From positions 1-14,641 of the forward strand of contig JALTJN010000388.1 of assembly GCA_027076405.1 (NCBI GenBank): a stretch of 14,641 bases of DNA, given 5' to 3'. The number at the start of each line of letters is the position of its first letter. Positions within the stretch are counted from its first letter, which is position 1. A program made the position numbers and the translations under genes. The stretch is from Chromatiales bacterium (GTDB taxonomy: Bacteria > Pseudomonadota > Gammaproteobacteria > UBA6429). Shown one piece after another: positions 1,460 to 14,641 of this stretch. Below the pieces are notes generated by a model that did not search any database, was not told where the DNA came from, and saw nothing but the letters and a program-made list of their open reading frames with translations.

Positions 1460-1565
1460 GTCTATCACTCCTGTTATCTCCTGCTGTATGTTCAGCAGAA
1501 GAGGATTACACGTGGGTCAATTTTCGGTGCAAATAGTTGGGGTTAGTGGGTCAATTTTGGGTGCA
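1..1565 (-). mobile_element. IS21-family insertion sequence, left end (partial)
   Basis: This is the istA-bearing end of an IS21-type element. The transposase reads away from the end at 1565, which begins 5'-TGCACCC on the minus strand, so it has the TG start expected of IS21 ends. Two 21-bp direct repeats lie just inside this end, as is usual for IS21. The istB gene and the other end should lie left of base 1, outside the window. I could not check a target duplication because the far end is missing. Confidence 0.85.
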
Positions 1566-1566
1566 A
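1512..1566. repeat. IS21 end: two 21-bp direct repeats
   Basis: GTGGGTCAATTTTCGGTGCAA is at 1512-1532 and the same sequence with one change (C to G at the 14th base) is at 1546-1566. They are in direct orientation, spaced 34 bp start to start. Multiple terminal repeats are the transposase binding sites of IS21 elements. The outer copy fixes the element end at about 1565. The repeats lie between istA and the flanking DNA. Confidence 0.85.
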
Positions 1567-1647
1567 TCTAACAGTCTTTATCTTTATGAACGGCAATGCT
1601 TCTGGAAAATACGACTCATTATATAACGTCAACTAGCCATTTAAATA

Positions 1648-1971
1648 TTAATTACCCACCTGGGTCTTCAGGTAATCGATTGCAGCGCTATGTGGCATGG
1701 TTATATCGTTATTTCGTAAAAAACTATTAAACTCCTGGTCTATTTCAATAATCTGAAAGCTCCTATGCTCATAATAGTTAGCGATGACTCTTAAGAGATA
1801 AGGAAAGCTATCGTCAAGTAGGTAGATTTCTTCGATTTGACAATGAGATCCCCACTTTCCTGACTGAGCTTCTTTAATGGCTCTATTCAAACTCATGTTT
1901 GCGGATACACTCGCTGAGTTATTCGAGTCGCGAACAATGCATTGTCGATAATGAGTTTCGATATGGTTCAT
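1648..1971 (-). CDS. hypothetical protein, 107 aa
   Basis: I do not recognise this gene. It encodes a small soluble protein with no signal peptide or membrane segment. The start is supported by AGGAAC about 5 nt upstream of the ATG. The middle (residues 45-80) alternates hydrophobic and acidic residues (IEEIYLLDDSFPYLLRVIANYYEH), suggesting an alpha/beta fold. The gene sits alone between the IS21 end and the 318-aa gene, in the same direction as its neighbours. There is a 182-bp AT-rich gap upstream. It could be a small cytoplasmic protein from an older island whose other parts were lost when IS21 inserted nearby. The call of a real gene rests on the ribosome binding site and ordinary composition only. 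Confidence 0.55.
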   Translation of the reverse strand: MNHIETHYRQCIVRDSNNSASVSANMSLNRAIKEAQSGKWGSHCQIEEIYLLDDSFPYLLRVIANYYEHRSFQIIEIDQEFNSFLRNNDITMPHSAAIDYLKTQVGN

Positions 1972-2133
1972 GATGTTCCTAACGCCTAAAATGTTTTTCT
2001 GGCATGGTGGGTTTTTTACTCTGCAATACGCACATTAATGTACTCTCTGAAATATTTATAAGATTTGCATATTTAAATTTCATCATGCCTGTGTTTTTTC
2101 AAAATATTTGCTGATTAAGATAGGCTTAATTTT

Positions 2134-2160
2134 CAGTTAAATTATTCCATGATTTAACTG
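2134..2160 (-). terminator. stem-loop at the end of the 318-aa gene
   Basis: A perfect 9-bp stem, CAGTTAAAT / ATTTAACTG, with a 9-nt loop overlaps the stop codon of the 318-aa gene on the minus strand. The stem is AT-rich and no clean T run follows, so it is a weak intrinsic terminator at best. It may instead protect the 3' end of the mRNA. Confidence 0.4.
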
Positions 2161-3110
2161 TTTATAATGTCTTTATACTGAGCATCTAAAAAGTCTTTTA
2201 TTTTTTCTTTCTCAACATTGATTTTTTTATAAAGCAATTCGTTATCCTGAATTATTTTTGTTCGACAATCTTTCATAAACGTTTTAAAGCGTATTTTTTT
2301 GAGTACATTTTTGTCTGTAAAAACAAAGTAATGCAATGGGTAACCCGGAGTGCTTTTATTAATAATATAAACGCCATTTTGATTTTCACGATCACCTGTA
2401 TCTGATATCTCATGCCGCGTCTTATCTAAGTAACTGCGAGCCCGTTTTTCAAGCTCATCAAGTACAGATTCCTTTCCGTTAGCATTTGTTTTTAAGTCTA
2501 GTATGTAGTATTCGCCATCTTTTTTTCCATCATTCTCACCTCTAACTATTTCATGGGGAACCAGCTGCTTGATATAATGTTGGCTAAACTCATCCACCTC
2601 ACGGGCGATATAAATTCCCACCATATTCAGTGCGGCGTAGGTAAAGTGCTCGTCTATTAATAAACGCGTCCAACAAAAGTCCAATGTGCCTTGGTACGGT
2701 CTTTCTGGACTATCTTCGCCGTATGTAATCAGTCCTGCCTGAAACTTATAATCATCATAGTCATAATCATAAAGGGTTTCAAAATGAGTAATATCAACGT
2801 CATTGGCAAAATTTTCATTTAGAAAAAACAGGTCTTCTCCTATACCAACTAAGGGCATCAGTAGAGTGTTGAGTTTTGTTATCTCCTCATTTGTTTGATC
2901 GAAAAAAAGTTGTTCCAGCTCGATGGGTGATGATATTTTTACGCCATACAATTTTTCTTCAAGATATATGATGACGGCATCCATTTCATCCATTGGCATT
3001 GTCAGCCGATATTTCAGTTGTTCTTTTTCAGTCATTGAAAAATACAACGGGCAGACTTTCATCAGTGCGCGTGTCAGTAGTGGTGACATGTTGTTCGTTG
3101 TCTTATTCAT
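2154..3110 (-). CDS. hypothetical protein, 318 aa (possible (D/E)xK nuclease-like core)
   Basis: I do not recognise this protein. It appears soluble and acidic in its first half, with a DYDYDDYKF stretch near residue 116, and basic toward the C-terminus. Residues 199-208 (GEYYILDLKT) form a hydrophobic strand ending in D205-L-K207. This resembles the (D/E)xK half of a PD-(D/E)xK nuclease core, but I cannot place the partner acidic residue with confidence, so this is only a hint. The C-terminal 60 residues are lysine-rich and probably helical. The ATG at 3110 has no good Shine-Dalgarno, and ATG codons at residues 8 and 17 are alternatives without better sites. A structured RNA with promoter and terminator lies immediately upstream on the same strand, so the RNA may be a leader for this gene. 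Confidence 0.6.
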   Translation of the reverse strand: MNKTTNNMSPLLTRALMKVCPLYFSMTEKEQLKYRLTMPMDEMDAVIIYLEEKLYGVKISSPIELEQLFFDQTNEEITKLNTLLMPLVGIGEDLFFLNENFANDVDITHFETLYDYDYDDYKFQAGLITYGEDSPERPYQGTLDFCWTRLLIDEHFTYAALNMVGIYIAREVDEFSQHYIKQLVPHEIVRGENDGKKDGEYYILDLKTNANGKESVLDELEKRARSYLDKTRHEISDTGDRENQNGVYIINKSTPGYPLHYFVFTDKNVLKKIRFKTFMKDCRTKIIQDNELLYKKINVEKEKIKDFLDAQYKDIINS

Positions 3111-3191
3111 ATTGGCTGTTTTATAAAAGTTTGAGACAGGTGCGGTGTAGATGCGATGCGTGTATTGAACGAAGGAGTGACTTTTTCTTGC

Positions 3192-3221
3192 GCAAAGAAA
3201 AAGCCTCCCGATAGGAGGCTT
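3192..3221 (-). terminator. intrinsic terminator ending the small RNA
   Basis: A perfect 8-bp stem, AAGCCTCC / GGAGGCTT, with loop TATCG is followed on the minus strand by TTTCTTT. It is a strong rho-independent terminator placed about 80 nt before the start of the 318-aa gene. The plus strand has only a poor T tail. Confidence 0.85.
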
Positions 3222-3318
3222 TAGAATAATTCGGGGACTCTTGGTTATGCCAGTTCGCCTGGAACCCTGTTCGGGCGGTAAGTGAACACCGCTTGCGCAG
3301 CCCCGTGTATATCCACTT
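3192..3318 (-). ncRNA. structured small RNA or attenuator leader, unknown family
   Basis: About 125 nt lie between a good sigma-70 promoter and an intrinsic terminator, with no convincing ORF. Three helices can be drawn. P1 pairs 3301-3305 with 3232-3236 (CGGGG/CCCCG, extended by CT/AG past one bulged base). P2 is GCGGT/ACCGC (3288-3292 with 3275-3279). P3 is GGTT-CCAG/CTGG-AACC (3243-3266) with a 3-nt bulge. The 5' end (AAGTGG, near 3312-3317) is complementary to TCACTT in the P2 loop, giving a possible pseudoknot that includes one G-U pair. The RNA could be a free sRNA or a regulatory leader for the 318-aa gene. It does not match 6S, tmRNA or RNase P as I know them, and I cannot name a family. 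Confidence 0.6.
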
Positions 3319-3324
3319 GTGGTT

Positions 3325-3353
3325 ATTATAATCCTCAGTGTTTGTAAAGTCGA
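3325..3353 (-). promoter_or_regulatory. sigma-70 promoter of the small RNA
   Basis: A perfect -10 TATAAT (3325-3330) lies 17 bp from a -35 TCGACT (3348-3353, four of six matches). Both sit just past the stop codon of the metallophosphoesterase. Transcription would start near 3318 and read into the structured RNA. Confidence 0.65.
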
Positions 3354-3359
3354 TGCAGC

Positions 3360-4787
3360 TCATGACTTTTTTGTTTTTCCATGGGCTTTGAGTGATCCTA
3401 ATATCCATGTCATTAAATGCTTCCTTACGCTTTTCATCCCCTTAAGTGAGTCGTCATAAAATGATTTTGGTGAGTGCGTTGCGGATTTAACCTTACTCAT
3501 TGCGGGACTGTATCCATCGTTAACGTACACGGTTTTATTCGGGATATGTTGGGCTAAATCGATTTGGCTCGGTTCTATGACTTTGTCATCTGGGGAATAG
3601 CTTTTTTTGGGGTTCAGGTTTGATAATACGGGCAGGAGGATTTGTCGGGTAACCTGGTTAAACTCGTTGGCCAGCTCGGCCATGCGCCTGGAGGCGAGAT
3701 CCGCCATGATGAGATCTTTGTTGTGGGCATAAGGTTTTAGGTCTATTGCCTCCTGATAGATTGCATCCCACTGTGTGGCGGTTGTTTCGCATTTAGGCCA
3801 GATGGCAGGCCAGACACCATCGTCTAAATCAATGATGCCATTCGGGTTAAAGTGTTCCAGGTTTCCATCGGTTGGTGCCGGTAGTTTGGTCTCGCCACCA
3901 AACATCTGAATTTCATCTTGTTTGAAGATTTTATCGCCATAGGGATAACCTCGGGGATTAGCCGTGACACGCACTCCTTTTACGGCATAATCCTGAACAC
4001 GATGCGTGTGGCCGTGTATCCACAGATTTATATCATTATGGTATTTTTGTATTAACTCACTCAGGTCAGATGCATATCCCGCAACCCGAAATAAATCCAA
4101 CCGGTCATACCGGTCTGGATACCAGTTTTCTTCGTTTAAGGCGAAATGCGTGTTAACCAGAGACTGTATCGAATCATATAACGGGGCATGATGAGTGACG
4201 ATAACGGTTTTTCCATCATGGGGCTGATCCAGTGTTTTCTTTAACCAGCGTATAGCTTGTTTGTGCTTATGGTAGGCCGTGTGGGGAATAAATCGTTCAC
4301 GGCATCTCTTGGGCAGCAAGCATTGATCATGTAGCCATTTTTCACCTGCTTTCTTACCGGCTTTGGTTGACCACCATTGTTTTGCAAAGATGTAGCGGTA
4401 ATCATTGATACGCATCTGCGCCGCTTCCATTAGACCGGGGTGTCCTTTTCCATAGTTGGTCCACAGGGTGGTTCCCAGAAATCGGACGCCCTCAATGACC
4501 ACGGAGTTGTTTTCTAAGTAATGAATGCCATAGGCTTTGGCGACCTTTTTCAGATCACGGTTCAGGTCATCAATATCAAAGCTGTAGTATTCATGGTTAC
4601 CGGCGACATAGATGACAGGCTTATTTAGACGCTCCATCTGTTTGGCGGCCCAGATAATGCCGTAATAGCCGCTATGGATATCACCAGCGAGTACGATGAC
4701 ATCGGCATCAGTGGGTTCTATGTCGGGGATGTCGAATTTGTCCCCGAGGTGTTCCCAGTGCGTATCACTTAGAAGCTGTATTTTCAT
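3360..4787 (-). CDS. calcineurin-like metallophosphoesterase, 475 aa
   Basis: Cytoplasmic phosphoesterase of the calcineurin-like (MPP) superfamily, which uses two metal ions to hydrolyse phosphodiesters or phosphomonoesters. All blocks are present: D8-x-H10 (LSDTH), G35-D36-I-H, G63-N64-H65-E, the VTHHAP segment (H199, H200) and H258-G-H260-T-H262. The catalytic domain ends near residue 290. The remaining 180 or so residues form an extension without motifs I recognise, so the substrate cannot be read from the sequence. The ATG at 4787 places the first metal ligand at residue 8, normal for the family. The gene has its own promoter overlapping a palindrome, and it is followed within 45 bp by the small-RNA promoter. 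A housekeeping enzyme is less likely than an accessory one, given the surroundings. Confidence 0.85.
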   Translation of the reverse strand: MKIQLLSDTHWEHLGDKFDIPDIEPTDADVIVLAGDIHSGYYGIIWAAKQMERLNKPVIYVAGNHEYYSFDIDDLNRDLKKVAKAYGIHYLENNSVVIEGVRFLGTTLWTNYGKGHPGLMEAAQMRINDYRYIFAKQWWSTKAGKKAGEKWLHDQCLLPKRCRERFIPHTAYHKHKQAIRWLKKTLDQPHDGKTVIVTHHAPLYDSIQSLVNTHFALNEENWYPDRYDRLDLFRVAGYASDLSELIQKYHNDINLWIHGHTHRVQDYAVKGVRVTANPRGYPYGDKIFKQDEIQMFGGETKLPAPTDGNLEHFNPNGIIDLDDGVWPAIWPKCETTATQWDAIYQEAIDLKPYAHNKDLIMADLASRRMAELANEFNQVTRQILLPVLSNLNPKKSYSPDDKVIEPSQIDLAQHIPNKTVYVNDGYSPAMSKVKSATHSPKSFYDDSLKGMKSVRKHLMTWILGSLKAHGKTKKS

Positions 4788-4799
4788 GATCAGTCCAAG

Positions 4800-4831
4800 G
4801 TGTAATATATATTACACTTTTAGGGGTTCAA
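4800..4831 (-). promoter_or_regulatory. promoter with 18-bp palindromic operator, metallophosphoesterase gene
   Basis: GTGTAATATATATTACAC (4800-4817) is a perfect palindrome 13 bp before the metallophosphoesterase start. A -10 TATATT (4804-4809) lies within it, 16 bp from a -35 TTGAAC (4826-4831). A dimeric regulator bound to the palindrome would block this promoter. No regulator for this sequence is identifiable in the window. Confidence 0.5.
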
Positions 4832-4836
4832 AACGC

Positions 4837-4867
4837 ACAAAAGCAGCCGGTTGCTGGCTGCTTTTGT
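4837..4867 (-). terminator. intrinsic terminator after the membrane-protein gene
   Basis: A perfect 12-bp stem, ACAAAAGCAGCC / GGCTGCTTTTGT, has a 7-nt loop (4849-4855). It lies 30 bp past the stop of the 223-aa gene and is followed by GCGTTTTG on the minus strand. It separates that gene from the metallophosphoesterase transcript. Confidence 0.8.
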
Positions 4868-4896
4868 CTGGGTGTAGCTTGTTGTTGGGATCTAGG

Positions 4897-5568
4897 TCAT
4901 GCGGGATAAGCTCTGGGTTCGTCTGGTTGTTCCAGCTCACCGTCGATGAATTTTTTAATAACCAACATCCATTTATCCGCTTCTTCATAGGGCATGGGGG
5001 CAAAGACTTTGGGGTTGTCTATGTCATCTAGGTCGAAATAGAGCCCTGTCTTAAGTGAGGCGGCCTGTTGGTTGCGGTTATTTGCCTGGGCAATAGTAGA
5101 TTGCTCTTCCAGTGTCGCTCTGCCAATCGATTCAAGCGTACTGTGTCCCGGTGAGTGAGCGCTGTAGCTCAGTACCTGTGATGGACTGAATATGCTGTTT
5201 TTACTGGCTTTATACAGATTTGAGTTATCGATTACGGCAATTTTGTTTTCTTTCAAATCCAGCCCGATACTGCCGATAGAGCAAGCATTGTAGTAGTCCG
5301 CCTGATTGAGCTCTTTTTTGACTACATCCACAAACCTGAGAATGGATTCATTGGTTTTTTTGGCCTGTCGTTTTGCAAGCTGATGGCTGAGAAAAACAGG
5401 TGTTATCACCGCAAGAGTACCTGCAACAAAGATAAACGCGGTGAAGTCACCGAGCTGCCAGCCTATCAATACAGAGGGTATGAGGCTCAGCAGCACAAAG
5501 ACCGGAGTGAATATCATAAAGTTCCGAGTTCGAAATGAGGCGATTTGAGTTTTGCCCATTAATTCCAT
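4897..5568 (-). CDS. hypothetical membrane protein, 223 aa, two TM segments
   Basis: I cannot assign a function. Two hydrophobic segments (about residues 17-37 and 42-62) form a helical hairpin near the N-terminus. A soluble domain of about 150 residues follows. Basic residues after the second segment (AKRQAKK) suggest that this domain lies in the cytoplasm. The soluble part (SIGLDLKENKIAVIDNS, YKASKNSIFSPSQVLSY) looks like a small beta-rich domain of the kind found in membrane-anchored DUF4755-type proteins, though I make that comparison from memory with low confidence. The start is chosen for GGAG 6 nt before the ATG. An ATG four codons later is an alternative. The gene is divergent from the XRE repressor gene and has its own terminator. 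Confidence 0.65.
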   Translation of the reverse strand: MELMGKTQIASFRTRNFMIFTPVFVLLSLIPSVLIGWQLGDFTAFIFVAGTLAVITPVFLSHQLAKRQAKKTNESILRFVDVVKKELNQADYYNACSIGSIGLDLKENKIAVIDNSNLYKASKNSIFSPSQVLSYSAHSPGHSTLESIGRATLEEQSTIAQANNRNQQAASLKTGLYFDLDDIDNPKVFAPMPYEEADKWMLVIKKFIDGELEQPDEPRAYPA

Positions 5569-5692
5569 TTTTAGCTCCGTGGTAAACCTACATTTCTCAT
5601 TAATTTAAATTACTTGCAAAGATTTGGAGCCTTATTGAAATAAGCCCAAAATAGCCTTTCATGACAGAAAACCAGTGAAAAACTAAAAATAT

Positions 5693-5760
5693 CTTAGTAT
5701 TTTGCCAAATACTAAGTATTCCTTAGTACATAGTCAAGCCAAAACTAAGAACATCTTAGC
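5693..5760. promoter_or_regulatory. operator cluster upstream of the XRE repressor gene
   Basis: Three overlapping or adjacent palindromes are built from ACTAAG and CTTAGT. The first has 10-bp perfect arms, CTTAGTATTT and AAATACTAAG (5693-5702 and 5707-5716). The second is ACTAAG-TATTC-CTTAGT (5711-5727). The third is ACTAAG-AACAT-CTTAGC (5744-5760, one arm mismatch). They lie 27-94 bp before the repressor ATG, between it and the divergent membrane-protein gene. The same half-site spacing recurs at 6579-6595, which argues for binding by the adjacent XRE protein. Confidence 0.75.
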
Positions 5761-5786
5761 CATGTATTTGTACTTAAAGCCCAGAC

Positions 5787-6092
5787 ATGACTAAGCAACC
5801 ACCTATTAGTAAACGACTTAAAGAATTACGATTGGAAGCAGGGTTGACTCAAGAAAAACTTGGCATACTTGCAGGCATTGATGAACACTCTTCAAGTGCA
5901 CGGGTGAATCAGTATGAAAAAGCTAAACATGTACCTGACTATGACACTATTCAGCGTTTTGCTAAAATATTTAAAGTTCCGTCCTGTTACTTTTATGCAG
6001 AAGATGACTCTCTGGCTTTAATGATACGCCTGCTTGGTAAACGGCCCACACAGGAGCAAGTCAAATTAATCAAGAAATTAACTCATTCTTAG
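5787..6092 (+). CDS. XRE-family transcriptional regulator, 101 aa
   Basis: Small DNA-binding repressor of the Cro/C1 (XRE) type. The HTH domain covers about residues 8-65: KRLKELRLEAGLTQEKLG gives helices 1 and 2, then a recognition region with a small insertion (DEHSSSARVNQYEKAKHVPD), then DTIQRFAKIFKVP. The tail after residue 75 is short and could mediate dimer contacts. No peptidase or ligand domain is present. The ATG has only a weak Shine-Dalgarno. Palindromes matching one consensus lie in front of this gene and in front of the convergent 148-aa gene. This suggests autoregulation and control of that gene. Its 3' end overlaps the convergent gene by 4 bp. Confidence 0.88.
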   Translation: MTKQPPISKRLKELRLEAGLTQEKLGILAGIDEHSSSARVNQYEKAKHVPDYDTIQRFAKIFKVPSCYFYAEDDSLALMIRLLGKRPTQEQVKLIKKLTHS

Positions 6093-6535
6093 TGCTTTAG
6101 CGCAGTTTTAAATGATAATACTGGATTGATTAAATCAGCCTCGTTAGTGTCAAAACTTGAATCAATATACCGATTACCAGACTGAAGAATATATATAAAG
6201 GCTAATTGCTTTGTTCTTGACTTAGGCTCAATAGCTGTCCAAATTTCTTTTATAACATCCATCGCCCAACTATTCTTACCGTTTAAATATGCAGGTGAAA
6301 CCAAATTAACTTCATTAATGTTTACGTCTTGAGATTGGCTCAAATCAACCAATTGCTCTATTTGTTGAAAAAGACTAATACAGGCCTTCTGACAATCACT
6401 TCGACGCTCATCAGTATAACTAACAAAGTACCAGGGCATGTGTAACTGAACATTGATTGTTGACCAAGCATGTTGGCCTGTCTTCCTGATTTGCTTTGGG
6501 ATTGAAATTTCTGCTACATCGAAGCTTTCGAACAT
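6089..6535 (-). CDS. hypothetical protein, 148 aa, likely XRE-controlled
   Basis: I do not recognise this protein. It appears soluble, with no signal or membrane segment. It contains aromatic-rich strands (HMPWYFVSYTDERRSD) and a helix with regularly placed leucines (ISLFQQIEQLVDL). I chose the ATG at 6535 because AAGGGA lies 7 nt upstream. An ATG 10 codons earlier (6565) extends the frame to 158 aa but lacks a ribosome binding site. The gene is convergent with the XRE gene, overlapping it by 4 bp. An ACTAAG-TAATT-CTTAGT palindrome sits 44 bp before the start. This two-gene layout (repressor plus small unknown protein sharing operators) resembles a self-contained accessory module, possibly toxin-antitoxin-like, but nothing in the sequence shows toxicity. 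Confidence 0.65.
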   Translation of the reverse strand: MFESFDVAEISIPKQIRKTGQHAWSTINVQLHMPWYFVSYTDERRSDCQKACISLFQQIEQLVDLSQSQDVNINEVNLVSPAYLNGKNSWAMDVIKEIWTAIEPKSRTKQLAFIYILQSGNRYIDSSFDTNEADLINPVLSFKTALKH

Positions 6536-6578
6536 TATTGATCCCTTATTAATATGAAGAAGCATTATCCAACGAAAT

Positions 6579-6595
6579 ACTAAGTAATTCTTAGT
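6579..6595. promoter_or_regulatory. XRE operator upstream of the 148-aa gene
   Basis: ACTAAGTAATTCTTAGT is a palindrome with 6-bp perfect arms and 5-bp spacer, the same form as the sites at 5711-5727 and 5744-5760. A GATAAT hexamer lies just downstream on the minus strand, so the site would overlap the promoter of the 148-aa gene. Confidence 0.7.
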
Positions 6596-6709
6596 TTTAG
6601 AGCAAGTTAAAAATGATAATTTTATTACTTCTAAAAAACTGTTAATTTACTTTGAACAACTGATATGTGACTGAATTAGACTTGTTTTTAACTTAACAAA
6701 AGACATAAA

Positions 6710-6744
6710 AAAACCCTCGTAACTCATTGATTACAAAGGGTTTT
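6710..6744 (-). terminator. intrinsic terminator of the tRNA-Ser gene
   Basis: AAAACCCT / AGGGTTTT (6710-6717 and 6737-6744), extended by GTAA/TTAC inside, is followed by a run of seven T on the minus strand. It begins 4 bp after the tRNA CCA end. In the insertion model this belongs to the host side of the junction. Confidence 0.85.
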
Positions 6745-6767
6745 ATTTGGCGGAGAGACAGGGATTC

Positions 6768-6781
6768 GAACCCTGGGTCGG
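6768..6781. other. attachment core, left junction
   Basis: GAACCCTGGGTCGG lies in the T arm and variable arm of the intron-bearing tRNA-Ser. The same 14 bp occurs at 14515-14528 in the truncated tRNA-Ser, in the same orientation. In the model, bases left of it (tRNA 3' end, terminator) are host and bases right of it are element. Confidence 0.7.
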
Positions 6782-6802
6782 TTTGACCCGACGCCGGTTT
6801 TC

Positions 6803-7044
6803 CGTCCCAGCTATAGCTTTCGCTACTGTCAAAATGACATTTGTGGGCTGGACTTTCTCTTTACCATGTCACAAATAAATGCGATTTAGGTAGCAGCCGT
6901 CAAGTCTCTACACTTTCAATAAATGACGAACATTTAAAGCTTAGCTCGGGATTGCCATCAGCATTACCTGTAAGGTTTCCCCGAATTTGACTGCATTCAC
7001 ACCAGTAGTTTCCAAACTGGGTGCTCGATTGGATCTATAAGGTC
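6803..7044 (-). ncRNA. group I intron (IC3-like) in the tRNA-Ser anticodon loop
   Basis: 242-nt ORF-less self-splicing intron between U34 and G35. The 5' exon ends in U and the intron ends in G, as group I splicing requires. P1 forms between exon GGTCTT (7045-7050) and the guide GAG(C)ACC (7020-7026), with the U-G pair at the splice site. P4 is TCGGG/CCCGA (6980-6984 with 6946-6950). P5 is ACCT/AGGT (6966-6976). P3 is GTCAA/TTGAC (6987-6991 with 6899-6903). P7 is about 6902-6906 with 6851-6855. P8 is TACC/GGTA (6889-6892 with 6862-6865). P9 has a GAAA tetraloop (6814-6825). Core strings such as GGGGAAACCT, GTAGAGACTTGACGG and GGTAAAGAGAAAGTCC closely follow the Anabaena tRNA-Leu intron as I remember it. 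No homing endonuclease is encoded. Confidence 0.92.
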
Positions 7045-7089
7045 AAGACCGGTGCATTCGACCACTCTGCCATCTCTCCGATGCGGCGC

Positions 7090-7117
7090 ATTATACAGAT
7101 TAGGCTCAATCACGCAA
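7090..7117 (-). promoter_or_regulatory. promoter of the intron-bearing tRNA-Ser
   Basis: The -10 TATAAT is perfect (7090-7095) and lies 16 bp from the -35 TTGCGT (7112-7117). It is followed by a G+C-rich discriminator (GCGCCGC) and the tRNA start at 7079. An AT-rich TAATATATATTA block (7124-7135) sits where an UP element would. This layout is typical of strong, growth-rate-controlled stable-RNA promoters. Confidence 0.8.
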
Positions 7118-7151
7118 GAAGTTTAATATATATTACAATGATTTATACAGT

Positions 7152-7205
7152 TGTGTCGGAATATCCAGTGCCTTATGTGGCACGAGTCGCTAAATTCCAG
7201 ACACA
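7152..7205. repeat. 54-nt imperfect hairpin, unexplained
   Basis: Outer stem TGTGTC-GGAAT (7152-7162) pairs with ATTCC-a-GACACA (7194-7205), with one bulged base. Inner stem GTGCC/GGCAC (7168-7172 and 7179-7183) has a 6-nt loop. It lies between the tRNA promoter and the IS256 relic, where no gene is visible. It could be a folded recombination site, the end of a lost gene, or a small RNA element. It has no T run, so it is not an ordinary terminator. Confidence 0.5.
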
Positions 7206-7295
7206 GCATCCGAGAATGACAGAACTTTTTACGGCATAGCCTTATAACCAACTCCATGTTCCTAGGACGTGGTTTAAATTTTAAATAAAAAAATA

Positions 7296-7324
7296 GACGC
7301 TGTAAATAATTCTGTGTAACTGTC
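7296..7324 (+). repeat. IS256 terminal inverted repeat, left
   Basis: The sequence GACGCTGTAAATAATTCTGT (first 20 bases) matches the reverse complement of 8568-8596 at 25 of 29 positions. The 12-bp CTGTGTAACTGT part is identical in both ends. Confidence 0.85.
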
Positions 7325-7327
7325 AGG

Positions 7328-8530
7328 TTAAATATAATCAGTTAAACGTCCTTCAAACTCAATCATAAACCGATTCAGTGCCAGCTTCCAGTTTCGAATG
7401 GGCATAGTCCATTTTTAAGAGGCTTGCTGAGTCGCTAAGTAAACCACTTTTTTAGCCGAGTCATCGGTGGGAAAGGGTTTTCGTTTTTTAATCACCTTTT
7501 CTAATTACGCTGTTTAACGACTCGATTGCATTGGTCGTATATATCGCTTTTCTTATATCGGCGGGGTAGTGAATAACGTGATTAAGTTCTGCCAGTGAGC
7601 ACGCCAGGATTTGCTGATTTACGGATATTTTTCATCCCAGCGTTCGGCAAATTCATCCAGACATAACAGGGCATGTTCTTCGGTTGTGGCTTAATAAATT
7701 TTCTTTATATCGGCCGCTATCGCTTTGTAATCCTTCCACGGCACAAACCGCACGGAGTTGCGCACCATGTGTACGATGCACAGTTGGATATGGGGTTGAG
7801 GGTAGATCGTATTAATCGCATCGGGGAAGCCTTTAAGCCCATCGACACAGGCAATTAAAATATCTTTCACACCCCGTTTTGTAGCTCGGTTAGTACGTTC
7901 AGCCAGAATTTGGCCCCTTCGTTTTCGGAGAGCCACATGCCTAACAACTATTTTACCGTCAAAATTTAGCCCAGTGCAAAATAGACGGATTTGTTGATAA
8001 CCCGTTTATCCTGACGAATTTTGAGCACAATGCAGTCTAAATAAACGATGGGGTAAATCGGGTCTAACGAACGGAATGGCCAATCAATTACTTGATCAAT
8101 GACCGCATCGGTGATTTTTGAAATTAATGAGGGTAAAACATCGGCATCATAAAGCTCTTTAAATGTTTCTGAAATTTCTCGGGTGGATAAGCAGCGGGTA
8201 TAAAAATGCATGATCTTGCTTTCATCCGAAGGCATACGGCGTTGACTTTTCTTAACCAGTTTAGGCTCAAAATCATCGTTTCGAACACGGGTGTGTCAAA
8301 TTCAAACTGACCATCTTCGGTTTGAATAGTTTTACTGGTATAGCCAATACGGCTGTTTGCTGAGTCGGTTATCACATCTTTAATCGTAGCCAAGATGATC
8401 ATCCAGCTCAGCATTTAAGGCCGCCTCAATGGGGTTTTAGATAACATTTTCGTGAGCTGACTTGGCCATGCCCCGTTTTAATGTTTTTGGCAGCCTCCTG
8501 GACTATGGCGAGTAAGTCTTCTTTTTTCAT
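7328..8530 (-). pseudogene. IS256-family transposase, broken by frameshifts
   Basis: Mutator-type DDE transposase. From the ATG at 8530 (MKKEDLLAIVQEAAKN) to the TAA at 7328-7330 is 1203 bp, the normal length of about 400 codons, but the frame changes several times. Recognisable pieces are LSTREISETFKELYDADV and PIVYLDCIVLKIRQDKRV (first Asp) at 7966-8235, then ILIACVDGLKGFPDAI (second Asp) and QLCIVHMVRNSVRFVP at 7691-7936. IYTTNAIESLNSVIRK (catalytic Glu) lies near 7500-7545. Breaks are near 8430-8450, 8260-8290 and 7900-7970, with stop codons near 7480 and 7420. All three catalytic residues survive in sequence, so decay is fairly recent, but no full-length protein can be made. Confidence 0.88.
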
Positions 8531-8567
8531 TGTCTGTCTATCCTATCCATTTCTGGTATTAATGATA

Positions 8568-8596
8568 AACAGTTACACAGATTTATTTACAGTCTC
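8568..8596 (-). repeat. IS256 terminal inverted repeat, right
   Basis: On the minus strand it begins GAGACTGTAAATAAATCTGT and pairs with the left repeat at 7296-7324. It is 38 bp upstream of the broken transposase start. Confidence 0.85.
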
Positions 8597-8640
8597 AAAA
8601 TACGAATAAATACAGATCATTTTCACCCTATAATTGATTT

Positions 8641-9261
8641 TCATCTATTTAAAAAATCATTATCTTCAAGCCAATCAAACAAAGCCTTCACCTTATCCCC
8701 AGAAGCAACTATCTTTTTATTCTTACGAACAGATAAATCGTGAATTTCTCTTTTCTCTTTATCTAACAGTATAATATTAGAAACTCTTTCTTGAATTAAT
8801 AGTAGCGACATACAAACATCAGATATTTTTCTCTCACAATTAATATTTTCACTCATGTTAATGCTTTTTTTATTATCAATGCTTACATCAACATGATGTT
8901 TTTCTATGTAAGAATACAATCGCTTTAAGTCATTTTCCTTTCTGCTTAGCTCTAATTTCATTGTTTTAATTTTAGATAATAGTAACTCACTATTTACTTT
9001 TTCATTAACATCTAGACAACCAGCACCTGCTTGGTGGTAGTAATATTCTTTTATGTCATGCATATAAATAAGGCTTCTTTCAATAGTTGTCCGGTGAACG
9101 TCTATTCTAGATGAAACCCATGCTATCATTTTAGATTCTGAGACAAAATATAATTTATGTCGTTCAGCCTCCTCTATTGCTAACTTAATCATAGCAAGTG
9201 TTTTTTGTTGTCTTTTTGTTCTCCATGAAGAAAAATTATCCTGTCTTTTTTTTGCACCCAT
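8641..9261 (-). CDS. gmtX: gamma-mobile-trio protein GmtX, 206 aa
   Basis: Third gene of the trio, a small accessory protein that probably assists the two recombinases on DNA. The N-terminus is basic (GAKKRQD, SSWRTKRQQK). Residues about 42-68 (ESKMIAWVSSRIDVHRTTIERSL) look like a helix-turn-helix, and residues about 90-122 (ELLLSKIKTMKLELSRKENDL) have coiled-coil spacing. The start lies 4 nt after the gmtZ stop, with its AAGGATTGAGG ribosome binding site inside the end of gmtZ, so translation is probably coupled. By layout it is analogous to TnpC of Tn554, a small third protein beside two tyrosine recombinases. The name rests on gene order, size and neighbours, not on a database match. The exact role of GmtX is not known to me. 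Confidence 0.7.
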   Translation of the reverse strand: MGAKKRQDNFSSWRTKRQQKTLAMIKLAIEEAERHKLYFVSESKMIAWVSSRIDVHRTTIERSLIYMHDIKEYYYHQAGAGCLDVNEKVNSELLLSKIKTMKLELSRKENDLKRLYSYIEKHHVDVSIDNKKSINMSENINCERKISDVCMSLLLIQERVSNIILLDKEKREIHDLSVRKNKKIVASGDKVKALFDWLEDNDFLNR

Positions 9262-9265
9262 TACC

Positions 9266-12200
9266 TCAATCCTTAAAAATGAGAAGTTTATTACTTAATG
9301 CTGTAGGTTTTCTATAATCTTGTTTTGTTAAAGCATCGGAAATATCACTAAATAATATTTTTTTTGAACTCATTAATGTATTCAAATATCCTGCTAATAT
9401 TTCAACCTCGCAACCTATCTGTATATCAGCAAGTAAATCATCAACATTACCTGTTGAAGCTAAAAGTCTCATTCTTTCTTTATCAGCAATAGCTCGTATT
9501 TCAGGGTTTTGTAAAGTTGGGTATTCATTTGAACTAGCCAGCAAACGGAGCAACCATTCTTTCTCATTGCATTTTTTTGTAACCGCTATTAAATGTTTTC
9601 TTACCATTTCAGGTGCATCTACATGAACAACATTATCTATTTCAGCTTTATAACAATTCTTCAACTTATCTATAAGTATTTCTTCTGTTAATTGCCATGC
9701 ACATGCTTCACTAAAATCGAGATTTTTCGTTTCCCATAACTCATCTAAAACCTCATCAGATTCACCAGATTTTTCAAGCTTTCTGATTAGCTCAGTGTTA
9801 CATTTTGCTGAATATAGCAATGCATATCTTTTTTGTGTTATAGCCTTAAGGTGATCTATATGACTAACAGAAAGAGGACACAACCCACATCGTTTTTTCT
9901 CAATTATGATTTTCAATACTTCCTCAGGGCATATTTCTCCAACCGGGCATATATGTGTTTCACGAAAAACAATTAAACGCATTGGAGTAGCTCTCAACAT
10001 TGAAATCCCATCTTCATCATTAGGATCAACAGTCATACGTATACTTACAAAATGATCTTGATTTAACACGGCACCACGATTAGACTCAAAAGCTGAACGT
10101 AAATATCCATGAGCACTATCAGCTCGCACAGCGTGACAATTACTACGGTCAAATGTTACTGAATCATGCTTAATATCAAACATAGCATCATCTGAGGCTT
10201 TTAATTTTTTTACTAAATCGTCAAACTCAGGTATAAAATAATAAGCCGTTACTATAGAAGAAGAATGCGCAACACATACTTTAATATCCTCTATATCTAA
10301 ATATTCACGTTTTTCACCTATGAAGGTATTTCTGCTTCCATGTGGTGTTGTTATAGCTTTATGTGATTTTAAAAATTTCGTTGTAGGCGCATTCATATAC
10401 GACTCCACATCAGCCTTTACATTTTTCTCGCTTCCTTTCTCATATACAAAACATGTATAATCTGCCTTACCAAGACTATTATAATAAAATTCAAAACCAA
10501 CCAAAAGCCTAAGCCACTCTTCCGCATACTTTGAATCTGATATAGGCTTTTCACCTACCCCTCTAAACATAGGTATTATATTATCAAATGGATTTACTTC
10601 CCTATCTTCATAATTTATAGCTTTTAAATCCATATCTGTACGAGACAACTGAAATTGTTGTTCTCTAAGCAGAGCACCTCTAACCCTATAATTAATAGGA
10701 ATTACAAAGGGGCCATGTGTTTTATCTGTATTAATATAACACTGTGAATAAGATGCAACCTCATTATCATTGGTTTTAGACAAATCCCAATCAAATAAGT
10801 CTAACCATTGCCATGACTGAACCCTTAAGCCTGTTTCAATAGCACACATGAATAGTCTAAGAACACTTAGTACTGGAACCTTCCTTGATACGTTATATGT
10901 TTTAGTGGAATACCCTCCTCTATTATTTTTATATTTTTTTGTTATTTTTAAACTTCTTCTTACGATTCTAAAAATATTTGGCACTTTAAATATCGGATAT
11001 ATTTTTCCCCTAGAAAAAACAATTGGAACATATTCAATATCACCTTTAGTGCCAGTATTAAAAACCTTCCTTGTTGAATCAGATCCTTGATACTTGTTCT
11101 CATACAACGCTTTTTCCGTCATATACATACCTAAAGACTCCAAGGCATATAGGTACTGAATCATATGAGGATAAACACCTTTTTGAAAAGGAATTTTTGT
11201 TGACTTTGCTGGTCTGGATGACACTGGTGAATCAAGTATTCTTCGAAATGGAATTGATCCTAATTCCCACACTTTTGAAACATCTGCAAATGCTTGAGAT
11301 ATATATAAAAAAAATATTTCCAAATCTCTTACAATAGACTGCATTGTCGTACGGCCGCATCTTTTTCCAATCATTGATAATAAAGTCTTTGGTAAGATAA
11401 TCTTTTTATCTGATTCATCTACACGTGAAACAAAAAGATACCTTGAAAATTCCTTGGGTGATTTTGGTATATTAACAGCATTTTCTTTATTAAGCTCATT
11501 CCACCACGGCAAATACAATAAAATATAATCCATCAAAAACACGAATGCTAACCGAATGCCTTTATGTGTTTGAAATCCTTTTATATTACTTCTATGTTCA
11601 ATATATGATTTGTATACCAAAAGCCATATTTTACTTTCCTTCTTAATATCAATAGCATTTTCTCTTCCTGGATAAAATGCTTGGGTCGACAACCACTCAC
11701 TATTTCTTCTCATTTCTGATAAATTACAATAATATTCCTCAAGCAGACCTTCTGTTATACAGCCCCCTCGATTTGAAATATCTATAAGCTTATGATCTTT
11801 TGTATCTTTATCACTTGCTTTTCTTTTTCTTTTTCTTTTTCTTTTTTCATCATATTTTTTACATAAAATTCGTTTTTGCTCAACTCTTTCCATAAATATC
11901 AATTCAATATCTTCGTCTGTTTTTTCTACAAACTCTATTAACGATATTTCTTCCTGAATAACACTTCCAGCGTGTCTATAAAGAGAGTACCTTTCAAACT
12001 GTTCCTTAGTGAATGAAACCTCGTGTTCTTTACATAAAATAAGCTCCGATAATATTAATGAAAATGGAAAAGGAGATTTTGAAAACTTCGCTCCCTCATC
12101 TCCACGTTGAGAGCTTATCCTAGCATCATTTAATATGGCCATATCAAGCACATTAACATCCTTAAATGAATGCCAATCGGTAGACAATATAAGTCGCTTA

Positions 12201-12835
12201 CCTCGTTTATTTAATTCATATATTGAATTTTTTGAAATTAAAGCAGCTTTTTCAGGTCTATGCGAAAGGCCTTTTCTATAAAGACCGATGAATTTTATTA
12301 CTTCAGTATATTTTTTATCGAAAAAGGATTTATGCTTGTCTGTGACTGTATTATTGAAAATCGAAGGGATAATTATTACTTTATTACACCAAAGTGCTAC
12401 AAGAATTAATTTTGAAAACATTTTGATTCTAGTGATTTTAGATACAGGTGTCGTGGGAATGTAACCTATGCTTGAATATGATATAAATAATTCAATATTT
12501 TTGACGTCATCCTTGTCTCCTCGATACCCTTTACCCTTTCCTATAGCTAGACTAGCCACCGCCTCTACAAAAGCAACATCTAAAACTGAATTCTCATATT
12601 GATCCGGTGAAAAATAGTTAAAATAAACCATTTCTCTGAGGTCTTGATAATACTTACATACTTTATAGTAGTTTCTACCTCCTTCAGCATCCTCAACCGA
12701 GTCCGAAATGATATCACCTGAATTTATAAGATTTGAATACAAATATTCCTTTACTTCTCTTAATGTTTTGATAACTGCATTATGTAAGTTTTTTCCATTT
12801 TTAATGAAAATCACCGTATCACCAACATTTACCAT
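9266..12835 (-). CDS. gmtZ: gamma-mobile-trio integrase GmtZ, 1189 aa, tyrosine-recombinase core
   Basis: Very large recombinase, middle gene of the trio. The C-terminal half contains a complete tyrosine-recombinase set: R671 (ETGLRVQSW), H832-G-S-R835 (TPHGSRNTF), H857 (VAHSSSIVTAYY) and nucleophile candidate Y866, at the usual H+9 spacing. After this comes a Cys cluster, C963-x5-C969-x13-C983-x2-C986 followed by H992 and H995, a likely zinc site. Residues 1-650 show no domain I recognise and presumably bind DNA or partners. A KRKRKRKRK run (about residues 337-345) is encoded by repeated TTTTTC units on the plus strand. AAGGAGA lies 8-9 nt before the ATG, 30 bp after gmtY. Ordinary phage integrases are 300-450 aa, so the length is unusual. 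Confidence 0.78.
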   Translation of the reverse strand: MVNVGDTVIFIKNGKNLHNAVIKTLREVKEYLYSNLINSGDIISDSVEDAEGGRNYYKVCKYYQDLREMVYFNYFSPDQYENSVLDVAFVEAVASLAIGKGKGYRGDKDDVKNIELFISYSSIGYIPTTPVSKITRIKMFSKLILVALWCNKVIIIPSIFNNTVTDKHKSFFDKKYTEVIKFIGLYRKGLSHRPEKAALISKNSIYELNKRGKRLILSTDWHSFKDVNVLDMAILNDARISSQRGDEGAKFSKSPFPFSLILSELILCKEHEVSFTKEQFERYSLYRHAGSVIQEEISLIEFVEKTDEDIELIFMERVEQKRILCKKYDEKRKRKRKRKASDKDTKDHKLIDISNRGGCITEGLLEEYYCNLSEMRRNSEWLSTQAFYPGRENAIDIKKESKIWLLVYKSYIEHRSNIKGFQTHKGIRLAFVFLMDYILLYLPWWNELNKENAVNIPKSPKEFSRYLFVSRVDESDKKIILPKTLLSMIGKRCGRTTMQSIVRDLEIFFLYISQAFADVSKVWELGSIPFRRILDSPVSSRPAKSTKIPFQKGVYPHMIQYLYALESLGMYMTEKALYENKYQGSDSTRKVFNTGTKGDIEYVPIVFSRGKIYPIFKVPNIFRIVRRSLKITKKYKNNRGGYSTKTYNVSRKVPVLSVLRLFMCAIETGLRVQSWQWLDLFDWDLSKTNDNEVASYSQCYINTDKTHGPFVIPINYRVRGALLREQQFQLSRTDMDLKAINYEDREVNPFDNIIPMFRGVGEKPISDSKYAEEWLRLLVGFEFYYNSLGKADYTCFVYEKGSEKNVKADVESYMNAPTTKFLKSHKAITTPHGSRNTFIGEKREYLDIEDIKVCVAHSSSIVTAYYFIPEFDDLVKKLKASDDAMFDIKHDSVTFDRSNCHAVRADSAHGYLRSAFESNRGAVLNQDHFVSIRMTVDPNDEDGISMLRATPMRLIVFRETHICPVGEICPEEVLKIIIEKKRCGLCPLSVSHIDHLKAITQKRYALLYSAKCNTELIRKLEKSGESDEVLDELWETKNLDFSEACAWQLTEEILIDKLKNCYKAEIDNVVHVDAPEMVRKHLIAVTKKCNEKEWLLRLLASSNEYPTLQNPEIRAIADKERMRLLASTGNVDDLLADIQIGCEVEILAGYLNTLMSSKKILFSDISDALTKQDYRKPTALSNKLLIFKD

Positions 12836-12865
12836 ATTTAATGTCTCCTTGACTTTTATTTGAAT

Positions 12866-14302
12866 TTATTTCACTTCTAATATAGGAAAATACTCACACA
12901 TGTTATATTCAAGAATAGATTCATCCGACAACTCCTCAAACATTGCTCTATCTGCTTTTTCAAGTTTTTCATGTAGTTCATTCACTTTGTTTTTTGCATA
13001 GTGCCTGGTTGTCATTATACTTTCATGCCCCATCAACATCTGCACCTCTTCAAGTTTTAGGCCTTTTTTTCCATTACTTAATTGAATATCATTAAGCATA
13101 TAAACTGCATAGGCATGTCTCAAACTATGCGGCGTCCAACTAAATCCTTTATGCTCGAAAGGCGTTTCAATTCCCGCACGTTTTACAGCTCTTTTAAATA
13201 AATTTATAAAACCTGCATCGGTAACCCCTACTAATGGTTCACCACGTTTTTTTCCGTATATATATTGAAAAACATAATCATTATTTCGTACACTCCCTGT
13301 ATACTCATGCTTAAGATACATCTCCAACTCATAAAAAAAACGTTCTTGAAAAGACCTTATAAAATACGTCATTGAGTATTTTCGTCCTTTAAATCGAATA
13401 TTTTCCTCTTTTGTCATTTGCTTGCCAAAACGAAGACCTTCTGGATCAGCAACCCAAACCTTGAGTTTATCTATATCGATATCACCCCACATCATATTCC
13501 TTACTTCTGAGCTACGAATACCTGTACCACAAGCCAACAACCACATTGCACGGTCCCGATGACTTCTGCATGCATCAAGTAACTTCCCAAACTCTTTAAT
13601 AGGAAAGTCGAGCCTTGCAATATCAACCAAACCCACTTTTTTAGATCTGTTCTTCAACCCTGCGGGACGTGACATAGACTTCCCGTCAATTCTCAATACA
13701 GATCCGAGAACGGATGATTGTTTAATATTTTTCTTTTCTCGAGATGACAGAAATGAAAAACCATCAACTGCTTTAATTAATGGTTTTAATTGACTTGGCA
13801 AACCCTCTATCCCTAGAAACTTGGCTTTTTCATATTGTTCATTCTTAAATACTTCACAGATATTTAAGAATGTATTTATAGGGGCTATAACATTATCAAA
13901 TGAGCCAGGCATTAGCCCGCCACCCATAAAGTCTAATTGATTAACAACATCTGGAACCCAGTTGTAATTCAAACCTAAATACTCATTTTCCGCCTGCTTA
14001 CTGAATGTCACCCAATCGTACTCCTTACCTTTCTCAAGAATAATTGGATACATCTGAATTACTTCATTTAATTTACTCTGGGTCACTCCTGCTGAAAAAG
14101 CACCCGCTTCATACAAATAATCAATAAATTTAGAAACAACCTCAGCGTACCTTTTTCGGGTAGTAAATGGATGACCTCGATTAGCAAGGTTAACAGCATA
14201 ATATTCAAACGCTAAAACACAATCACCGTCATCATCAATCAATGACCATGATTTTTTCCCATGATGAAAAGAGTTAATTCTCGTAACATTTTTTAATGAC
14301 AT
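12866..14302 (-). CDS. gmtY: gamma-mobile-trio tyrosine recombinase GmtY, 478 aa
   Basis: Site-specific recombinase that should cut and join the attachment sites of the element. The catalytic domain occupies about residues 225-450: R263 (CGTGIRSSEV), a probable beta-hairpin Lys in FKGRKYS (about 305-308), H392-S-L-R395 (TPHSLRHAY), H426 (LMGHES) and Y435 (TTRHYAK). The N-terminal 200 residues include a core-binding type segment (TTRKRYAEVVSKFIDYLYEAG, 47-67). AAGGATG lies a few nt before the ATG. It is the first gene of the gmtY-gmtZ-gmtX operon and lies 212 bp inside the truncated tRNA-Ser, as expected for an integrase next to its attachment site. Recombinase identity is near certain. The GMT name rests on the trio layout. 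Confidence 0.88.
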   Translation of the reverse strand: MSLKNVTRINSFHHGKKSWSLIDDDGDCVLAFEYYAVNLANRGHPFTTRKRYAEVVSKFIDYLYEAGAFSAGVTQSKLNEVIQMYPIILEKGKEYDWVTFSKQAENEYLGLNYNWVPDVVNQLDFMGGGLMPGSFDNVIAPINTFLNICEVFKNEQYEKAKFLGIEGLPSQLKPLIKAVDGFSFLSSREKKNIKQSSVLGSVLRIDGKSMSRPAGLKNRSKKVGLVDIARLDFPIKEFGKLLDACRSHRDRAMWLLACGTGIRSSEVRNMMWGDIDIDKLKVWVADPEGLRFGKQMTKEENIRFKGRKYSMTYFIRSFQERFFYELEMYLKHEYTGSVRNNDYVFQYIYGKKRGEPLVGVTDAGFINLFKRAVKRAGIETPFEHKGFSWTPHSLRHAYAVYMLNDIQLSNGKKGLKLEEVQMLMGHESIMTTRHYAKNKVNELHEKLEKADRAMFEELSDESILEYNMCEYFPILEVK

Positions 14303-14348
14303 TTAACATCCTTACAACCTTCTCTTGTAAGCTTATATTACTACACAA

Positions 14349-14497
14349 TAAATACGCACAACGAAAACGCACTTATTTTCAGCGAACAGAAAAAACCACA
14401 AATGGCATAAATATTTGAAATAATTGACTTTAATTGATATTTTTAATGAAAAAGAGCTAAGAAATACTGATAACTATATAGATTTAAATACGCACAA
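14349..14497. repeat. 13-bp direct repeats at the element end, likely recombinase arm sites
   Basis: TAAATACGCACAA occurs at 14349-14361 and again at 14485-14497, in the same orientation. A partial match (AAAACGCAC) lies at 14364-14372. They sit between gmtY and the attachment core, where arm-type or accessory binding sites of a tyrosine recombinase usually lie. They may also act in control of gmtY. The rest of this 212-bp AT-rich stretch shows nothing else. Confidence 0.55.
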
Positions 14498-14514
14498 GAC
14501 ATGTGTATAGATAA

Positions 14515-14528
14515 GAACCCTGGGTCGG
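14515..14528. other. attachment core, right junction
   Basis: GAACCCTGGGTCGG, identical to 6768-6781. Bases left of it (ATAA and beyond) have no tRNA character, while bases right of it are tRNA-Ser. This is therefore the right boundary of the element. Confidence 0.75.
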
Positions 14529-14584
14529 GATAAACCGACGCCGGTTTTCAAGACCGGTGCATTCGACCACTCTGCCACCTCTCC
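14515..14584 (-). pseudogene. tRNA-Ser(UGA) truncated at the T arm by element insertion
   Basis: On the minus strand this is a perfect tRNA-Ser from position 1: GGAGAGG, D arm, anticodon loop CTTGAAA with TGA anticodon and no intron, and variable arm GTCGG-TTTATC-CCGAC. It then runs to CCCAGGGTTC and stops being a tRNA. The T loop, 3' T-arm strand, acceptor 3' strand and CCA are missing. It cannot be a working tRNA. It is almost identical to the 5' part of the intron-bearing tRNA at the left end, which has A instead of G at position 7 and a different variable loop. It is best read as the host gene's 5' remnant. Confidence 0.9.
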
Positions 14585-14623
14585 AGGTTCGGCGCCCAAA
14601 TATGTGGGTGTACGTCGAGGGGC

Positions 14624-14632
14624 GGTATACTA
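14624..14632 (-). promoter_or_regulatory. possible -10 of the host tRNA-Ser promoter
   Basis: TAGTATACC on the minus strand followed by G+C-rich GCCCC looks like the -10 and discriminator of a stable-RNA promoter, giving a leader of about 30 nt before the tRNA start at 14584. The -35 would lie past the window edge. If active, it would transcribe the truncated tRNA and then gmtY. Confidence 0.4.
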
Positions 14633-14641
14633 CATAAAAAA

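Follow-up and report, generated by a model that had tools for sequence, protein, structure and literature searches.

GMT islands carry a gene trio with tyrosine recombinases, as does the element described here. Islands in transfer RNA (tRNA) genes regenerate their target, and the available part of the Islander account lists 159 of 3919 islands with a displaced 5' tRNA fragment (PMC4383910). GInts share with the present element a recombinase operon at one end, cargo and high target specificity; in the available portion of that paper, the authors consider the target probably not fully inactivated (PMC5385486). We analyzed a 14,641-nucleotide stretch of DNA from a Chromatiales bacterium (assembly GCA_027076405.1, contig JALTJN010000388.1), hereafter the window, in which a tyrosine-recombinase trio element has cut a host tRNA-Ser(UGA) gene. 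A second, complete tRNA-Ser(UGA) in the window, the spare, is very probably a whole gene carried by the element that broke the host gene, and would supply the tRNA in trans.

The window contains the cut host gene, a conserved element end, the recombinase trio and the complete, intron-bearing tRNA gene. As the preliminary description had noted, GAACCCTGGGTCGG is present at both 6768 and 14515, and a tRNA cut in its T arm on the right runs in one direction with a complete, intron-bearing tRNA on the left, both copies being on the minus strand. Their likeness exceeds these 14 bases (40 nt at 85% and 37 nt at 97%). The right copy reads from 14584 into the T-loop GGGTTC (14520–14515) and then continues as TTATCT. 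It is the 5' remnant of a host tRNA-Ser(UGA) (14515–14584, minus strand), intronless, cut in the T-loop and with GGGTTC as its last six bases. The recombinase-proximal element end, TTATCT, occupies 14509–14514 (minus strand), and the TTC/TTATCT junction is also found in eight other genomes. The earlier claim that a tyrosine-recombinase trio element split an intronless host tRNA-Ser(UGA) gene is supported. From its sequence and by analogy with loci L003 and L007, where the DNA upstream is collinear with that of sister genomes in which the site is uninterrupted, 14585–14641 (minus strand) would be host DNA immediately upstream of the broken gene, comprising its promoter region. Inside the element, a subterminal TGTGCGTATTTA at 14485–14496 may be a recombinase arm site, and a second TGTGCGTATTTA lies at 14349–14360 (both minus strand); a TGTGC box occurs within 45 nt of the end in six of the eight other ends of the TTATCT type.

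The spare lies at 6748–7079 on the minus strand, CCA included, with exons 7079–7045 and 6802–6748 flanking a 242-nt group I intron (6803–7044, minus strand) between U34 and G35. The intron boundaries were placed by sequence, and the intron matches RF00028 at 56.1 bits, passing the gathering cut-off of 50 bits. ARAGORN made no tRNA call in the raw window; with the intron removed in silico, it called the left copy tRNA-Ser(tga). Upstream of the spare is a promoter-like sequence, TTGCGT, 16 nt, TATAAT and then a GC-rich GCGCCGC (7090–7117, minus strand), which was read by eye and was absent from the output of a consensus scan; downstream is a terminator-like stem-loop (6714–6739, minus strand). 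These features support the earlier proposal that the stand-in copy brings both a promoter-like sequence and a group I intron of its own.

In relatives of the element, we observed the two ends, sister sites without the interruption, and spare genes that are complete. A profile built from 30 aligned recombinases was run against a collection of genome contigs and yielded 21 related loci. The region upstream of the recombinase was read in 15 of these, leaving out L015 and L018–L022, which were partial or weak. Seven of the 15 loci have the TTC/TTATCT junction, two have TTCTCT in trxB and one (L005) has its end 72 kb away; no proximal end was identified in L010, L012, L013, L016 and L017. In the seven, from Methylotenera (G001), Methyloversatilis (G002), two Dechloromonas (G003 and G013), Acidovorax (G005), Paracidovorax (G006) and Herbaspirillum (G010), a tRNA-Ser(UGA) or transfer-messenger RNA (tmRNA) gene breaks off at the T-loop TTC, as in the window, and passes into TTATCT. 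A motif search located the same junction in Methylophilus (G004), 72 kb from the recombinase. With the window, this makes nine proximal ends reading GRGTTC/TTATCT. The window is apparently one single contig, and an assembly chimera of two tRNA-Ser loci could have produced its two copies; we find this hardly credible, as the junction recurs in eight other assemblies and the trio is intact and in order. Viral contigs held seven recombinase loci, the best match by E-value being 24% identical. More distant recombinase relatives, L065 and L066 (G422 and G449), lie directly behind an intact tRNA-Gly(CCC) gene.

The far end was first read in G002, where AGATAA, the inverted repeat of the proximal end, stands beside GAGTTC and the 3' piece of the host tRNA. 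AGATAA/GRGTTC followed by a host 3' piece was also found in G003, G004, G005, G006, G013 and G011, so that the far end is known for six of the eight genomes with proximal ends, plus G011. Since these other cases came from a search for AGATAA, the motif is common to them by construction. Joining the host flanks is a test independent of that motif. According to ARAGORN, the joined flanks yielded an intact gene in all six cases (five tmRNA and one tRNA-Ser), and single flanks yielded none (0 of 12). The joined sequences also matched uninterrupted sites in sister genomes. That of G006 matched G025 over 899 bp at 89.6% and that of G005 matched G025 over 666 bp of the join at 81%; the G002 join matched G037 over 720 bp at 93% and 235 bp at 91%, and the G013 and G003 joins matched G500 over 1400 bp at 75% and 937 bp at 85%, respectively. 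These comparisons cover five of the six joins, G004 being left out. The far-end motif was not found in G025, G037 or G500, and the stretches around their sites contained no recombinase relative. Between its two ends, the element measures 6.7 to 77 kb in the relatives. GRGTTC is present at both sides in all six; the two sides differ in one, G013, where the proximal GGGTTC fits the host stem and the distal side reads GAGTTC. Surveyed more widely, the far-end motif occurred in 2 of 399 genomes from the order of G006 (one already known, and G390, within an apparent coding gene) and in none of 369 genomes from the class of G015. At least 120 stretches of viral contigs contained it, and by eye most of these look like ordinary tRNAs of phages in which the variable loop reads AGATAA; the short motif alone is therefore no proof of an end. 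AGATAAG sequences also occur near the start of the region G004:C1:20640-98040, which possibly holds nested or rearranged elements.

A complete spare gene lies inside each of the six resolved elements: a tmRNA in five and an intron-bearing tRNA-Ser in one. Its nearer end is 74–166 bp from the far end in five elements and 41 kb away in G006. In the two Dechloromonas genomes, G003 and G013, the spare is on the opposite strand and therefore cannot be a recombination hybrid. Over the 5' part of the tmRNA, the G005 and G006 spares share 82% identity, against 73% and 77%, respectively, with their own host remnants; identity is 88% between the two host remnants and 96% between the G006 remnant and the gene of its sister G025. 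In G004, spare and remnant agree at 86%, closer than in G005 and G006. The remnant and the spare were the sole tmRNA matches above the cut-off in G004, G005 and G006, all draft genomes, and the tRNA-Ser site query matched two places in G002, again remnant and spare. No tmRNA scored above the cut-off in G010, neither remnant nor spare; the permuted tmRNAs of G003 and G013 fell below it too (37.2 bits). G011 has an intronless tRNA-Ser(tga), probably its spare, on the recombinase contig; its proximal end was not found, and its far end is on another contig.

These far ends and spares bear on the central proposal of the preliminary description, namely that the element ends on the left in the T-loop at 6768 and that the complete tRNA there joins a carried, intron-bearing 5' half to the host 3' half. 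The far ends, together with the Dechloromonas spares on the opposite strand, led us to reject restoration of a 5' half. The two copies in the window do share a strand and an identical 6-bp GGGTTC, the right remnant joined to the left 3' end, the predicted product of excision, does fold as an intronless tRNA-Ser, and islands with displaced 5' tRNA fragments are known in the accessible part of the Islander catalogue. However, the replacement in each of the six resolved relatives is a complete gene with a 3' half of its own; the host 3' half lies elsewhere, after AGATAA at the far end, and in two of them the spare is on the opposite strand. Moreover, the window's left copy lacks AGATAA ahead of its GGGTTC; position 6748, the lower limit of the coordinates in the preliminary description, is not an end of the type found in the relatives. 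The acceptor stem of the spare also pairs with itself (GGAGAGA/TCTCTCC; A7–U66), whereas the remnant reads GGAGAGG (G7). We thus regard a restored 5' half in the window as unlikely. The far-end site, AGATAA beside GRGTTC and a tRNA 3' half, occurred nowhere in the window, either exactly or with up to three mismatches, a search that would overlook an end diverged beyond that; the element therefore seems to continue past the left edge.

The intron does not appear to belong to the mechanism. We rejected it as a required part, the probable spare of G011 being intronless and the five tmRNA spares being called uninterrupted by ARAGORN. We therefore regard it as a probable passenger, acquired together with the spare. 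A 217-nt intron occupies the same place in the G002 spare, scoring 37 bits (Rfam cut-off 50; E 2.8e-6). In the class of G015, intron homologues were found in 15 of 369 genomes at E 1e-15 or better, in a survey that scored two candidates per genome. By their flanks, read on the 3' side only in L096 and from the 5' exon only in L091, L092 and L094, 14 of the 15 lie in tRNA-Leu(UAA), L095 lies in another tRNA and none lies in tRNA-Ser, and the idea that a tRNA-Ser intron is common in this class was discarded. The window's intron resembles the tRNA-Leu(UAA) group I introns, which likewise follow U34, the best piece matching at 93% over 91 nt; it differs in being located in a tRNA-Ser(UGA) on a mobile element. 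In the available parts of two accounts of bacterial tRNA group I introns, the tRNAs named are Leu, fMet and Ile2, and tRNA-Ser is not named (PMC8450103, PMC4033280). The tRNA-Leu(UAA) introns of L084, L086, L091 and L094 look much longer than the others, reaching nearly 700 nt in L084 and L086, and may carry an insert. On a Tritonibacter mobilis megaplasmid (L001:1400-1735), the anticodon loop of another tRNA holds a related group I-like intron with 77% identity over 161 nt. In small trees, of 12 and 13 introns, the window's intron grouped with the tRNA-Leu intron of L084 (0.987 and 0.988), and the L063 intron grouped with that of Tritonibacter (0.947) or, once it was added, with that of L109 (0.988). 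The introns were few, that of L088 was cut short and those of L084 and L086 have long inserts, so the grouping is weak; on these sequences, it is doubtful that the two carried tRNA-Ser introns share one origin.

Locus L109 (IMG/VR contig 3300048865_000014) has a tRNA-Ser(UGA) with a group I-like intron at 8416-8678, adjoining a tRNA-Leu(UAA); no element ends were found in the 9 kb available. Such a gene without element ends lends something to the view that the host of the window had two native tRNA-Ser(UGA) genes, that the element hit the intronless one, and that the DNA left of about 8600 is host chromosome, as does the fact that no element end was recognized in 1–6747. We nevertheless judge this very unlikely, given that in the survey above, with its two scored candidates per genome, no such intron in tRNA-Ser was found among the 369 genomes. 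In addition, the spare lies downstream of the third trio gene, X, on the same strand, a placement that, apart from an insertion sequence (IS), matches that in G004, where the spare follows X by about 70 bp, and that in G005 and G006, where one extra gene intervenes. Finally, the left flank (1–6747) holds accessory genes and an IS21 element, and no core gene was recognized in it.

Several observations weigh against a spare carried whole. The remnant and the spliced left copy are identical at 65 of 70 positions, the mismatches being position 7 and the variable arm, and this agreement is higher than in most relatives; that their hybrid folds as a tRNA-Ser makes the restored 5' half structurally possible. 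The element's far end is absent from the 14,641-base window and the empty site of the window's own insertion was not seen, the interpretation being drawn from relatives. Among these, G004 is irregular, with 72 kb between recombinase and proximal end, for G001 and G010 the proximal end is all that was found, and the two ends in G002 sit on separate contigs. G003 and G013 have the same site and a 97.4% identical element (8.5 kb); the six resolved cases therefore amount to five independent ones.

Overall, we favor a model in which the trio element inserts in the T-loop of the host tRNA-Ser(UGA), breaking the gene, and brings with it, downstream of the trio, a complete and separately promoted tRNA-Ser(UGA) with a group I intron. 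The spare would make up for the lost tRNA in trans. Insertion would probably occur in the SE/Tn554 mode, with the 6-bp spacer GGGTTC flanking the element and TTATCT ... AGATAA as its short terminal inverted repeats. In the window, the spare would be carried whole, with the far end outside; the intron is predicted to splice, and the spare would be the only working copy.

Divergent members of the family in Methylobacterium (L009, L010 and L070) have a different target: trxB, broken near residue 280. G008 has both pieces of the host trxB and a complete second trxB. G009 has an N-terminal trxB piece and a spare, with no recombinase-side junction identified. In G007 only the trxB junction on the recombinase side is present, and no second trxB was found within about 30 kb beyond it. 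The C-terminal pieces begin at residue 280 and the N-terminal piece aligns to residue 279 in G009; that of G008 aligns to 306, beyond the apparent junction. The trxB spares of G008 and G009 are 91.6% identical to each other, versus 62–65% to the host genes. The ends of these elements are TTCTCT and AGAGAA.

Taking all targets together, we lean towards the view that the trio family follows a break-and-replace strategy: an element would destroy an important gene at a highly conserved stretch, namely the T-loop of tRNA-Ser or tmRNA or the AAGDVTD stretch of trxB, and would carry the only working copy. As the element would hold that copy, the host could not shed the element by deletion; the spare would act as a built-in addiction module. 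Such spares, together with any introns in them, would have been captured from other genomes. Should the host have no copy besides the spare, retention of the element would be tied to translation or ribosome rescue, and the element would be stabilized without toxin or partition genes. Such elements would also allow foreign genes for tRNA, tmRNA and thioredoxin reductase to take the place of native ones, and would open a way for group I introns into new genomes.

The trio occupies the minus strand of the window between the spare and the proximal end. Y (12866–14302, 478 aa) is a tyrosine recombinase (Pfam PF00589, 75.8 bits). In an alignment of 30 sequences, R263 and R395 of Y are invariant, and H392, H426 and Y435 are at least 90% conserved. 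Z (9266–12835, 1189 aa) is a large recombinase-like protein with a C-terminal Cys cluster, which matched no Pfam family; similar proteins are encoded downstream of Y in 12 of 15 relatives. R671, H832, R835 and Y866, together with Cys 963, 969, 983 and 986, are invariant in an alignment of 12 Z sequences, and we read the former as a probable tyrosine-recombinase RHRY set. X (8641–9261, 206 aa) is a small protein that likewise matched no Pfam family; according to blastp, a homologue follows Z in 11 of 15 relatives. A RecD2-like helicase gene is located downstream of the trio in L004, L007, L010 and L016; none was seen in the window.

The trio is separated from the spare by a decayed IS256-family insertion sequence (7300–8592, no strand assigned), identified by its 24-nt inverted repeats, which are 96% complementary, and by its disrupted open reading frames (ORFs). 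It resembles a Moraxella plasmid sequence, one match being annotated as an IS256 family transposase. The remainder of the window (1–6747, no strand assigned) is probably further element cargo and encodes a helix-turn-helix (HTH) regulator, a metallophosphoesterase, ORFs of unknown function and an IS21 transposase. Within 5679–6598, near-identical AAATACTAAGTA-TTCTTAGT repeats, one of them inverted, border an HTH repressor gene (5787–6092) and an ORF at 6089–6565; the repeats are likely operators.

Among described systems, GMT islands differ from this element in their trio proteins: Y reaches 45 bits with the NCBIfam GmtY model, whose cut-off is 340, and Z and X of the window match no GMT model. 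The label of GMT island given in the preliminary description accordingly finds no support. According to the available part of their description, GInts have four genes, ginABCD, where three are present here, a difference by gene count only; neither tRNA nor tmRNA is mentioned in that part of the text (PMC5385486). SE/Tn554 elements are alike in having 6 bp on both sides, GRGTTC in the six relatives, the window showing the proximal side only. In G013, GGGTTC on the proximal side versus GAGTTC on the distal side is what a donor-derived footprint predicts, in one case and as far as the available portion of the SE account extends (PMC10214605). SE differ in having four core genes, intA, tfp, intB and srap, where this element has three (Y, Z and X), again by gene count only. 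They also differ in host range: SE are reported in Gammaproteobacteria only, and the relatives with both ends resolved in this study belong to Methyloversatilis, Dechloromonas, Methylophilus, Acidovorax and Paracidovorax. The text of the SE paper mentions neither tRNA nor tmRNA (PMC10214605).

Neither the SE text nor the available GInt and Islander texts describe a target that stays broken beside a whole spare, and no account of it was found in the accessible open-licence PMC literature, where this arrangement is apparently undescribed. Fragments of the 5' type at island ends are not new, since the available part of Islander lists 159 of 3919 islands with one (PMC4383910). Standard tRNA-island finders expect a split tRNA or tmRNA to be restored at the island edge, and would set wrong bounds for whole-spare elements. 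They would report the window as an island of 8 kb in which the 5' half has been restored, where relatives span 6.7 to 77 kb. The Islander orientation filter, as given in the available text, would reject the two cases with opposite-strand spares, and some of the 159 5'-fragment islands could be of the whole-spare type. The likeness to Islander-type islands is nonetheless close, as far as the available account describes them: a tRNA or tmRNA target, a T-loop subsite, a tyrosine recombinase and a split target with a gene fragment displaced to one end (PMC4383910). The difference lies in what becomes of the target. Islander-type islands, in that same account, restore it from the piece in attP; in all six relatives with both ends, regeneration from an attP fragment is not seen, the target stays broken and the element carries a whole second gene.

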